In this document: positions 16,341-56,515 of the stretch, in pieces
Position numbering within the stretch: the stretch's first letter is position 1
How the letters are laid out: every line of letters begins with the position of its first letter
NCBI GenBank assembly: GCA_024275575.1
Contig: JAJRYV010000120.1
Span: forward strand, 1 to 56,515
Length of the DNA stretch: 56,515 nucleotides
Direction: 5' to 3'
DNA from: a bacterium
GTDB taxonomy: Bacteria > Zhuqueibacterota > Zhuqueibacteria > Zhuqueibacterales > Geothermadaptataceae
Made by a program: the position numbers and the translations under genes
The notes under the pieces: generated by a model
What the model saw: only the letters and a program-made list of their open reading frames with translations
Told to the model about the DNA's origin: nothing
Database searches by the model: none

Positions 16341-17036
16341 TTATTGTTGATATTTTGCATAGCCGGATTTCCCGCCGCGTTTTTTATTGCCGCGCAATCT
16401 TTTAACTTCGTCACGAAGACGTGCAGCGGTTTCAAATTCCGTGTTTTCAGCGGCGGCTAACATTTGCCGTTCGAGCATATCGAGTTTTTCTTCGCGTTCA
16501 AATGGCGTCATTTTAAACCATTGTGCATCGCTGATTTCTCCCGACTCATCTGCGGTTTTGTTGCTGTAACTTTCCGCGCGTACATCGGCAACACGGGTTG
16601 CCTGCATCACCTCCTCGGCCGATTTGTAGATCGTTTTCGGCGTCAAACCTTTTTCCTGATTATATTGCTTTTGAATCTTCCGGCGCCGGCTGGTTTCATC
16701 GATAACCGCCTGCATTGATCGCGTAATTTTGTCTGCGTAAAAAACAACCTTGCCTTCGGCGTTGCGTGCCGCCCGCCCGGCGATTTGCAGCAGGCTTCTC
16801 TCACTGCGTAAAAATCCCTCTTTATCGGCATCGAGAATGGCGACAAGCCCGACTTCGGGCAAATCGAGCCCTTCGCGCAATAAATTGATGCCTACCAGAA
16901 CATCAAACTCACCGAGACGTAAATCGCGCAGAATTTCAACCCGGTCGAGAGCATCGATTTCCGAATGCAGATAGCGCACACGGATATCCATCTCCGCAAG
17001 ATAATCCGTCAGATCTTCGGACATGCGTTTGGTCAA
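16341..17036 (-). CDS. uvrB: UvrB C-terminal fragment (possible restart at TTG)
   Basis: The same frame downstream of the TAA, with the first possible start a TTG at 17036 (residue 32 after the stop). It contains helicase motifs V-VI ([33 protein letters not shown]) and the UVR domain. There is no clear Shine-Dalgarno before the TTG, so independent translation is doubtful. Confidence 0.45.
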
Positions 17037-17129
17037 TGTAGTGATGAGAATACGTTGCTTGCGGATTACGCGCCGGCTGATTTCGCCAATCAGGTCATCG
17101 ATTTGTGTTTTTACCGGCCGGACATCAAT

Positions 17130-18389
17130 TTAAGGATCAAGCAATCCGGTCGGCCGGATCACCTGTTCGACAACTACGCCCTGACAATTTTCCAGCTCTG
17201 TTTCCGCCGGGGTGGCTGAAATATAAATGGTTTGCGGAATCAACGTATCGAACTCTTCATAGCGTAGCGGCCGATTATCGAGAGCACAGGGCAGGCGGAA
17301 GCCGTGCTCCACCAAAGATTCCTTGCGCGCCCGATCACCACGATACATGCCGCGAATTTGCGGCACCGTCACGTGAGATTCATCGATAAAACATAAATAA
17401 TCATCAGGGAAATAGTCGAGCAACGTTAATGGGCGTTCTCCGGGTTTACGGCCGGTGAGCATGCGGGAATAGTTTTCGACACCACTGCAATAGCCCAGTT
17501 CTTCCAGCATTTCGATATCATAACGTGCCCGCATTTCGAGACGCTGGGCTTCCAGCAGTTTGCCCTTTTGTTGAAAAACCTCAAGCCTCTCTGCAAGTTC
17601 GGTTTTTATTTCTTCAATGGCTGACTTTAATTTCAATTCGCTGGTGACAAAGTGTTTGGCCGGAAAGATCGCCGCGATCGGCAGGTCCTCGATGACTTCT
17701 GCGCTAACGGGATTGATCCGGCAGATATTTTCGATTTCATTGCCGAACATTTCGATGCGGATGGCCTCACGCTCATAAGCCGGCATCACTTCGATGACAT
17801 CGCCGCGGACGCGAAAAGTACCGCGGTCGAATTCATAATCATTGCGGGTGTAATGGATATTCACGAGATGTTCGAGAATGACATTGCGATCGATAAACTG
17901 GCCTTTTTCGAGCGTATAGAGCTGATTTTTATACTCCTGCGGATCACCCAATCCGTAAATGCAGGATACCGATGCGACGATGATAACATCTTTTCGTGTC
18001 AGCAGGGCGCTGGTTGCTTTCAGTCGCAGCCGGTCGATTTCATCATTAATCGAGGTGTCCTTCTCGATATAGGTATCCGTCGAAGCGATGTAAGCCTCGG
18101 GTTGATAGTAATCATAATAACTGATGAAATATTCGACTGCATTGTGGGGGAAAAAACTTTTAAACTCGCTGTAAAGCTGGGCGGCCAGCGTTTTGTTGTG
18201 AGAAAATACTAGCGTCGGTTTGTTGATTTTTTCGATCAAATTCGCCGCCGTGAACGTCTTGCCGCTTCCGGTTACGCCGAGCAAGGTCTGATATTTATCG
18301 CCGCGCAGCAAACCCTCGTAGAGTTGCCCGATGGCTCGTGGTTGGTCGCCGGTTGGTTTAAAATCGGAAACGAGTTTGAAGTCTTGCAT
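17130..18389 (-). CDS. uvrB: UvrB N-terminal fragment (helicase motifs I to III, up to the internal stop)
   Basis: The first 419 codons of the interrupted uvrB, starting at the ATG 18389 ([17 protein letters not shown]). It carries the ATP-binding domain, the damage-probing beta-hairpin and the UvrA-interaction region but lacks motifs V and VI (second RecA domain) and the UVR/UvrC-binding tail. Alone it should not complete incision by analogy with characterised UvrB. Confidence 0.7.
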
Positions 18390-53778: not shown

Positions 53779-55173
53779 TTGAAAAGATTAAAATTTTCCC
53801 AGTTAATCAATCTGGAAATTCAGCTGCTTAAGGACGCCGAAGCCGATCCGCTCGAAATTCGCCTGCGTGACCGTGAAATCGGCAGGAAGTTGCACGATTC
53901 AGGCAGCTCGATTACCGGCCTTTTTTTGCATTGGCTGAAATTGGCGGGTGGCGAAAATGCCAGAAAACCTGGCGATATGTATAATACCGGCATGCATTTA
54001 CTGGCTTATATTTTATTTTTTTCCGGGCTGGCCACCGGCCTGTCGGCAGGTTCAGCAGTGCTGCATTTCGATGGTACTCAGCCCGTCAATATCGTCAATT
54101 TTCTGGCGCTGTTTCTCGGCGTACAATTTTTAACTTATCTATTGTTCCTGCTGAACTGCCTGCCGGAAAGAATAAAAAAAACACTACCGTTCCTTGGTGA
54201 TTTTTATGATTTTTTACGCCAGATCGCTCTGCTCATAAGTCAAAGCAGCAGCCGTATTTTGGATAGAATCGGTGCGGAGCAGACACATCTTTTCTTCGAG
54301 CGGCTGCAGCGAATCCGGCTGCGGCACAAGCTCTATCTGAATATTGAAAAATGGCTTCTCATCCGCCTTAGCCAAACCTTCAGTCTGGCATTCAACCTTG
54401 GCGCATTACTGATTTGCCTGTACCTCATCGTGTTTTCCGACCTTGCTTTTGCATGGAACACGACGCTGGACTTACCGGACAAAAGCTTTCACCGACTAAC
54501 GACGATGGTCAGCCAACCCTGGCATAAAATCATGCCGGAGGCGGTTCCCGATTTGGCGCTGGTTGAAAAAACCCGTTTTTCCCGTCTCGAAGGCACTTAT
54601 CTAAACGCACCAAAAAACAAACGCGCCGCAGATTTAAACAGCCCGGGAGACTGGTGGCCATTCCTGATCCTTGCACTTTTTTTTTATGGATTCCTGCCCC
54701 GGTTGATAATCTACTGCTTTTCTTTATGGCGGTTCCATGCGAATTTGCAAAAAGTCTCTCTGAAAACAGTGCATTTTGCCGCCTTGTATGAACGTCTGAT
54801 AATGCCGCTTGTGCAAACACGCGCCGGCTCTTCCGAAAATATTGATTCACAAAGCCGAAAACTGAAAGATGATTCAACTGTCGCAAACAAAGCTGCAGCC
54901 GAGGTATGCAAAATCATCCTGTGGGGAGAACCGCAACTCCCTGTAGATCAAATTCAGGCGCTTGTTTATAAAAGGTTTGGTTGTGAAAACTATACCACAC
55001 TTGAAGCGGGTACATTCGAGAGTCGCAAGGACGACTTGACGCTGCAACAGCTGGCAAAAGTGACCGGTAAAAACGAACTTGTTCTCATCCTCGTCGAATC
55101 CTGGGAAACACCGGGCAAAGCGATTTACCATTTTGTGCAGCGATTGCGTGAACAATTGCCCGAAAAACAGTAA
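53779..55173 (+). CDS. DUF2868 family membrane protein, ended early by an in-frame TAA
   Basis: A 464-residue membrane protein with four hydrophobic regions (around residues 72-95, 105-128, 210-230 and 295-320) and a cytoplasmic tail. The pattern LIRLSQTFSLAFNLGALL and the downstream GTPase identify the DUF2868/DUF3482 pair known from gammaproteobacteria. The TAA at 55171 falls inside the conserved C-terminus: the same frame continues 45 codons with DWLAWQNAMAQIGDPYCRVV, as expected for the family, to a TGA at 55309. That end forms ATGA with the GTPase start. The start is a TTG at 53779, 10 bp after osmC. The function of the family is unknown. Confidence 0.8.
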   Translation: MKRLKFSQLINLEIQLLKDAEADPLEIRLRDREIGRKLHDSGSSITGLFLHWLKLAGGENARKPGDMYNTGMHLLAYILFFSGLATGLSAGSAVLHFDGTQPVNIVNFLALFLGVQFLTYLLFLLNCLPERIKKTLPFLGDFYDFLRQIALLISQSSSRILDRIGAEQTHLFFERLQRIRLRHKLYLNIEKWLLIRLSQTFSLAFNLGALLICLYLIVFSDLAFAWNTTLDLPDKSFHRLTTMVSQPWHKIMPEAVPDLALVEKTRFSRLEGTYLNAPKNKRAADLNSPGDWWPFLILALFFYGFLPRLIIYCFSLWRFHANLQKVSLKTVHFAALYERLIMPLVQTRAGSSENIDSQSRKLKDDSTVANKAAAEVCKIILWGEPQLPVDQIQALVYKRFGCENYTTLEAGTFESRKDDLTLQQLAKVTGKNELVLILVESWETPGKAIYHFVQRLREQLPEKQ

Positions 55174-55311
55174 ATTATCGTTGGTATAGTCAATACGGCT
55201 AGTAAAAACGCAGCCCCGAAAAATGAAGATTGGCTAGCATGGCAAAATGCGATGGCTCAAATCGGCGATCCCTATTGCCGGGTCGTTGCAATGGTGGAGG
55301 AATTGGTATGA
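55174..55311 (+). pseudogene. C-terminal remainder of the DUF2868 frame
   Basis: 45 codons in the same frame beyond the TAA, ending in TGA 55309-55311, overlapping the GTPase ATG (55308) as ATGA. It keeps the family C-terminal motif (WQNAMAQIGDPYCRVV). No start codon with a Shine-Dalgarno precedes it, so it is expressed only if the TAA is read through. Confidence 0.7.
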
Positions 55312-56515
55312 CTTCCTCACCGGTTTTTGCCGTCATCGGGCGCGTCAACAAGGGGAAATCCAGCATCGTTTCGACGCTGGCAGAGGACGATTCGGTGCGC
55401 ATTGAACTCTCGGCCGGCACGACGAAATATTGCCGGGAATTTCCCATAAAAATCGATGGCCGCATCGTCATGACACTCATCGATACACCCGGATTTCAGC
55501 AAGCGCCGCGGGCGCTCACATGGCTCAATGACCACGAAGTTTCCGCTGCCAATCGCCGTGAAGTGGTTGAAAAATTTGTCGCGACGTTTGCGCAAAGCGA
55601 CGATTTTACCGATGAATGCCGCTTGCTGCAACCCATTCTGGCCGGCGCCGGTATTTTATACGTCGTCGATGGGGCGAAGCCGTTTCGCCGAAATTATGAG
55701 GCGGAAATGGAAATTCTGCGCTGGACTGGACAACCACGCATGGCGCTGATCAATCGTATCGGTGATCAAAATTTTTTCAGCGAATGGCAGCAGGCTCTCG
55801 ACCAGTATTTTTCTGTTGTACGCCATTTTGATGCCCAGCATGAAGGTTTCGATGGCCGTATCAAATTATTGCAGGTTTTTCGTGAACTCAAAGACGACTG
55901 GCGTGCGGCGGTCGATCAATCCATTGAATATCTGACACAAGAATGGCAGCACCGGCAACAACTGGCTGCACGAAATATCACTGAAATGCTGATTGACGAG
56001 CTGATCTACTTTCGTCAAATCGTCCTTGCAGCCAATGAACGTATCGATGACCACCGGGAGAAACTGCAATCGAAATTTCATGATTATTTGCGCAAAAGAG
56101 AAGAAAAATCACGCTCCGATATTGAAAGAATTTATCAGCATCTGCGCATAAAAAAAGAAGCGGATGAGCTTGATAAACCCCTGTTCGATCAGGACCTGTT
56201 TGCTGAGAGCACCTGGGATTTTCTCGGCCTGTCACCGCGGCAACTTCTGGGGTTTGGGGCTGTCGGCGGTGCAACCGTCGGTGGCGCGCTCGATGCCGTC
56301 GTTGGCGGCGCCTCGTTTATGACCGGCGCTATAACCGGTGCGCTGCTCGGAGCGGGTTCGGTCTTTTATTTTTCGACAAATCGCTTTGCCTCGCTGGAAT
56401 ATCTCGGCAATTATCTCCGTGGTGACAGAATACTGCGTATTGGCCCGCACAGAAATAAAAACTTTCCCTGGATTCTGCTCGATCGCGCATTGCTGCATTA
56501 TTTCAGCGTGCGCGA
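55308..56515 (+). CDS. DUF3482-type GTPase (runs off right edge)
   Basis: 402 codons are visible; the C-terminus is outside the window. A TrmE/Era-like GTPase domain spans about residues 1-170: G1 GRVNKGKSSI, G3 DTPGF, G4-like NRIGD (NKxD variant). A helical region follows, then a glycine-rich hydrophobic hairpin (GAVGGATVGGALDAVVGGA, residues of about 320-350), typical of DUF3482 and suggesting membrane insertion. GGAGG lies 8 nt upstream of ATG 55308. It overlaps the DUF2868 frame by ATGA. The pair's role is unknown. Confidence 0.9.
   Translation, partial: MTSSPVFAVIGRVNKGKSSIVSTLAEDDSVRIELSAGTTKYCREFPIKIDGRIVMTLIDTPGFQQAPRALTWLNDHEVSAANRREVVEKFVATFAQSDDFTDECRLLQPILAGAGILYVVDGAKPFRRNYEAEMEILRWTGQPRMALINRIGDQNFFSEWQQALDQYFSVVRHFDAQHEGFDGRIKLLQVFRELKDDWRAAVDQSIEYLTQEWQHRQQLAARNITEMLIDELIYFRQIVLAANERIDDHREKLQSKFHDYLRKREEKSRSDIERIYQHLRIKKEADELDKPLFDQDLFAESTWDFLGLSPRQLLGFGAVGGATVGGALDAVVGGASFMTGAITGALLGAGSVFYFSTNRFASLEYLGNYLRGDRILRIGPHRNKNFPWILLDRALLHYFSVR

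Follow-up and report, generated by a model that had tools for sequence, protein, structure and literature searches.

An in-frame TAA in a DUF2868 gene is private to one bacterial genome assembly and is one of about 20 such stops

The DUF2868 gene and its neighbours

The window analysed here is one contig, 56,515 bp in length, from the genome assembly of an uncultured Calditrichota-type bacterium, which comprises 4.96 Mb in 144 contigs and is 97.7% complete. Towards the 3' end of the window there is a gene of the DUF2868 family, with an OsmC-like protein encoded by its upstream neighbour and a GTPase encoded immediately downstream (Table 1). The product of the DUF2868 gene is a membrane protein with no assigned function. 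As the first-pass annotation had it, a TAA is in frame with the open reading frame that starts at 53779 and is followed by 45 sense codons and then a TGA, this TGA forming an ATGA overlap with the ATG of the GTPase (55308-55310).

When the TAA is read through, the protein is matched by PF11067 (DUF2868) across residues 187-497, which is positions 21-315 of the 315 in the profile, with an E-value of 9e-56 and a score of 190 bits, where the curated cut-off is 26.8. This match reaches past the stop at residue 465, while the annotated open reading frame, ending at residue 464, is without the full-length family C-terminus. A GGAGG sequence is located 7 bases 5' of the GTPase start, in codons for a conserved MVEE motif, and from its position these codons may double as the Shine-Dalgarno sequence of the GTPase. 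Since the GGAGG probably serves the GTPase start, the last few codons of the tail have a second reason to persist. Several of the relatives show similar sequence ahead of their own DUF2868/GTPase overlaps.

Table 1. Features of the window, and in-frame stop codons elsewhere in the assembly (L numbers are loci)
Feature	Position	Strand	Remarks
DUF2868 gene shortened by TAA	53779..55173	+	464 aa, TTG start, residues 1-464 of 510
In-frame TAA, codon 465	55171..55173	+	Sense codon in 39/39 relatives
DUF2868 family C-terminus, 45 codons	55174..55308	+	Codon score, profile score, alignment, AlphaFold2 model
TGA ending the full frame, in ATGA overlap	55309..55311	+	ATGA/GTGA overlaps in most relatives
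GGAGG, probable GTPase Shine-Dalgarno inside conserved MVEE codons	55296..55300	+	Inferred from sequence reading
GTPase, MMR_HSR1 and DUF3482	55308..56513	+	Domain match; continues beyond contig end
uvrB, split by TAA 17132-17130 (codon 420)	16344..18389	-	Full-length UvrB equivalog when read through
TAA, aminotransferase	L094:4733
TAA, PBP1A	L095:10523
TAA, ECF sigma factor	L110:11781
TAA, SurA-like	L112:948
TAA, alaS	L113:467
TAA, sigma-54 regulator	L113:7550
TAA	L121:2467
TAA, pyrG	L123:18013
TAA, S9 peptidase	L146:14598
TAA, KaiC-like	L146:17865		Less certain
TAA, LD-carboxypeptidase	L175:305
TAA, PMT	L177:5228
TAA, MCP	L188:13842		Less certain
TAA, MacB/FtsX	L191:4066		Less certain
TAA	L193:18021		Less certain
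TAA, ADP-forming CoA ligase	L193:8097
TAA, M14 peptidase	L199:7114
TAA, Cas3 (HD, DEAD, Cas3_C)	L207:3825	-	Stop after helicase domains; less certain
TAG	L138:3477
TAG	L195:4951
TGA	L120:2977
TGA	L136:2496
TGA	L145:8647

The sequence 3' of the stop codon

It had been proposed from a reading of the sequence that the 45 codons match the C-terminus of the family and would not be there by chance, and both proposals are borne out. By codon score the tail, at +8.4, is close to the median of real 45-codon gene windows in the window (+8.8) and above out-of-frame stop-free windows, whose 99th percentile is -0.4. Against a profile of 39 DUF2868 relatives, drawn from Calditrichota/KSB1, Desulfobacterota-type, Gammaproteobacteria, Anaeromyxobacter, Planctomycetota, and Verrucomicrobiota records, the tail scores +52 bits; the relatives themselves, in leave-one-out scoring, give 15-82 and shuffled tails give -58 +/- 12. 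The proteins of all 39 relatives run 35-58 residues beyond the TAA column, where the residue is mostly Pro, His, Gln, or Glu, with Pro in G001, the sister genome. The stop is private to this assembly and, judged by its sequence, the tail is the DUF2868 family C-terminus.

It is extremely improbable that 55171 is a natural end of the protein, with the tail a leftover or of service to the GTPase only. The presence of the GTPase GGAGG within the tail would fit with this, but it is contradicted by the alignment, in which none of the 39 relatives stops at this position, as well as by the invariance of W488 and D497 of the tail (28 sequences) and by a coding score equal to that of real genes.

A comparison with the sister genome over 55174-55308, which had been put forward as a check, gives a pS of 0.62, a pN of 0.27, and 58% amino acid identity for the tail, with 0.80, 0.31, and 52% for the body of the gene, so that no decay is visible and the substitution rates in the tail resemble those of the rest of the gene. 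Because the tail is conserved like the remainder of the gene, the stop is either young or not real. In an AlphaFold2 model of the read-through protein (mean pLDDT 83, pTM 0.80) the tail contributes strands at 466-471 and 500-504 and a helix at 482-493 to a C-terminal alpha/beta domain, and by this model truncation would leave the core of the domain incomplete. No relative was found among viral contigs or PDB sequences, and a search of PDB folds gave just weak alpha/beta and Ras-like matches, none with an E-value below 0.001. A TAA flagged by protein search at the DUF2868 gene of a further genome (G035) lies just upstream of the start codon, outside the gene.

Other in-frame stop codons in the assembly

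A TAA is also present within uvrB in the same window, and this is probably what the first-pass annotation had counted as the first, the stop in the DUF2868 gene having been described as the second. The uvrB stop separates the N-terminal domains from the C-terminal domains. When 30 UvrB sequences are aligned, this column holds a sense codon in all 29 of the others, for Glu in 25 of them, and the UvrB of this assembly deviates at 0 of the 270 otherwise invariant columns. The other complete copies of uvrB found when 58 relatives were searched likewise have a sense codon at the site. In one relative (G049, C2:812307-814236) uvrB is in pieces, with five TGA and one TAG within the alignment, which looks like a pseudogene or else an assembly (5 contigs, 5.3 Mb) with many frameshifts.

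Stop codons flanked on either side by coding signal in the same frame were sought in 1.86 Mb (38%) of the genome, at loci L091-L150 and L171-L210, and the candidates were then inspected. Most of the sites identified are backed by homology or by Pfam/NCBIfam matches across the stop, and full-length equivalog matches span it in pyrG, uvrB, PBP1A, and others. A tblastn count of stops was filtered against shadow open reading frames, which swamped the unfiltered count. There are about 20 private in-frame TAA codons in the 1.86 Mb, together with 2 TAG and 3 TGA that are not for selenocysteine, which means that besides the DUF2868 stop there are some 19 similar private TAA stops in conserved genes of this assembly. 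Those at L146:17865, L188, L191, L193:18021, and L207 are less certain because a close sister orthologue is absent or weak. Three of the stops other than TAA are on small contigs, of 4-11 kb, that carry accessory genes, so the non-TAA stops may have arisen differently from the TAA codons.

In 0.4 Mb (7%) of the sister genome there is no case of an in-frame TAA, where 4 would be expected at the rate seen here, and one possible case of an in-frame TGA. A search of ABC-transporter domains in six genomes, which provides too little sequence to be informative, found no stop within the matches listed. Within the 1.86 Mb the TAA sites are not enriched near the ends of genes, and clustering by contig, which would suggest contigs of low coverage, is not significant (P 0.23). 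Only one frameshift-like alignment was seen in approximately 60,000 codons covered.

An in-frame TGA of a different kind is present in a DUF3179 gene (L125:9080, + strand), at VAY[U]PL. It is conserved as TGA in the homologues in G001 and G003, and a tRNA-Sec is present, making this a probable selenoprotein with TGA as its selenocysteine codon. The DUF3179 family is already on a list of selenoprotein families (PMC9312934).

A young stop might be a real one. A nonsense mutation newly arisen in the strain that was sampled would make the DUF2868 gene a new pseudogene, or leave its product 45 residues shorter, with the other TAA codons having arisen likewise, and this is the second likeliest explanation, though less likely than not. 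The DUF2868 gene is dispensable in this class, being present in 6 of the 59 relatives listed (this genome excluded), and the undecayed tail suits a young stop. By the structural model, truncation would cost the C-terminal domain one helix and two strands, and despite the truncation the GTPase retains its own start and Shine-Dalgarno sequence. What does not suit real mutation is the genome-wide picture, since about 20 stops in 38% of a genome, in pyrG, alaS, PBP1A, surA, and uvrB among others, with almost no frameshifts and no concentration at gene ends, are unlike natural decay.

Base changes and the decoding of TAA

At 11 of the 17 TAA columns that can be compared, the residue in the closest sister is Glu, encoded by GAA in all 11 (P 0.001 against all one-step neighbours of TAA). 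Lys is the sister residue at just one TAA column, though AAA is as common as GAA. The prevalence of Glu at these columns would therefore suggest either G>T changes or something that reads UAA as Glu. A symmetric G:C>T:A substitution predicts TAA, TAG, and TGA at 59, 26, and 15%, where 20, 2, and 3 were observed, so that the 20 TAA in 25 are mildly away from expectation (P 0.02). In genes with close sister orthologues, a split made post hoc, the stop is TAA in 16 out of 16 cases (P 2e-4). Missense changes of the G>T and C>A kinds show no excess between this genome and the sister, in a comparison of low power with too few orthologous codons, and radical changes number 14 in this genome and 21 in the reverse direction, against a predicted excess of about 7, which is also a weak test. 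Both mutY and mutM are intact, and a mutator lineage deficient in the repair of oxidative damage (GO system) is thus not indicated. The bias towards TAA among the private stops is not fully explained.

Were UAA, while still the main stop, sometimes decoded as an amino acid, which would probably be Glu, the DUF2868 protein would be made whole and, extrapolating from about 20 cases in 38% of the genome, some 50 genes would have an in-frame UAA. The Glu residues of the sister are in keeping with this, as are the excess of TAA far above TAG and TGA, the presence of the stops in essential genes, and the lack of a missense excess, weak as that test is. However, TAA is the commonest ordinary stop, ending 681 of 1365 gene-like open reading frames, RF1 and RF2 are both intact, and there is about one in-frame TAA to every 1000 GAA codons. 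No UUA anticodon is present among 41 tRNAs (from 219 first-look candidates, of which 69 were unscored, in a genome that is 97.7% complete), and no variant of tRNA-Glu with UUA was found genome-wide within 3 mismatches. Nothing points to a suppressor derived from tRNA-Glu, tRNA-Glu being present as two ordinary copies only. G>T errors at GAA would equally produce Glu columns, the column in DUF2868 is itself not one of Glu in the sister, and the base at +4 does not provide a readthrough context, with no C in 20 sites. Decoding of UAA as Glu is accordingly very unlikely, and keeps a small probability because the TAA bias exceeds that of a simple G:C>T:A error model.

Of the three origins suggested in the first-pass annotation, which were a recent mutation, an error, or a codon that is read through, the last has gained no support of its own, while the general proposal stands. 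Low-level or regulated readthrough of the DUF2868 TAA alone, yielding a short and a long form of the protein, would account for an intact tail in frame, but there is no stimulating RNA structure downstream (z 0.14), TAA is the tightest stop, none of the 39 relatives has a stop at this position, and the assembly has about 20 sites of this kind. It is most improbable that this is the explanation.

Error in the assembly as the likeliest cause

The best explanation, put at about an even chance, is that the DUF2868 TAA is a single-base consensus error in this one assembly. It is the likeliest because some 20 such codons in 1.86 Mb are scattered through core genes, which could hardly all be dead in one living population. 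On this reading a private single-base substitution in one metagenome-type assembly interrupts an otherwise intact DUF2868 gene, and the TAA is not a programmed signal. Low-level sequencing or DNA-damage substitutions, of a G:C to T:A flavour, may have become fixed in the assembly. In support of error, frameshifts are few, unlike in natural gene decay, the TAA, TAG, and TGA codons together roughly fit G:C>T:A substitution, and the same kind of substitution is seen in other genes, essential ones included. Against it, 4.96 Mb in 144 contigs is unlike an assembly of very low coverage, and the share of TAA is high even under G:C>T:A errors; the missense excess that such errors predict did not show up in the weak test described above, and the DUF2868 site, with Pro in the sister, is also without the Glu pattern. 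We infer that an error, not a mutation, lies behind the TAA.

The case is most likely of use as a warning. When the coding sequence 3' of a stop is still preserved, there is good reason to regard that stop as young or false, and a single private stop should be weighed against the whole of the assembly in which it is found. That the DUF2868 stop is one of about 20 shifts the weight from the gene to the quality of the genome sequence and, less likely, to its code. If the TAA codons were true, this genome would be a bacterial candidate for UAA with a sense meaning, and we know of no earlier one.

Comparison with known systems

In the nuclear code of Blastocrithidia, UAA is both Glu and stop, and there is a dedicated tRNA-Glu(UUA) (PMC12153298). 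The situation here is similar in that in-frame UAA falls mostly on Glu columns of the relatives and UAA also serves as a terminator, and differs in that in-frame UAA is very rare and a tRNA-Glu(UUA) was not found. Selenocysteine UGA, as in the DUF3179 gene of this same genome, is likewise an in-frame stop within a conserved gene, but is conserved in relatives, whereas the stop in DUF2868 is a TAA and is private.

DUF2868 (PF11067) followed by a DUF3482 GTPase (PF11981) forms a two-gene unit without an assigned function, and the gene order, the ATGA-type overlap, and the tail are shared here with the rest of the family. The difference is the TAA 45 codons ahead of the family end, which no relative has. 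In this the gene resembles those with spurious stops in draft or metagenome-assembled genomes, where the stops are private, scattered, clean substitutions in intact genes, including essential ones. Unlike typical consensus errors of draft genomes, the stops in this assembly have a strong bias towards TAA and towards Glu codons, and they occur with few frameshifts and on fairly long contigs.
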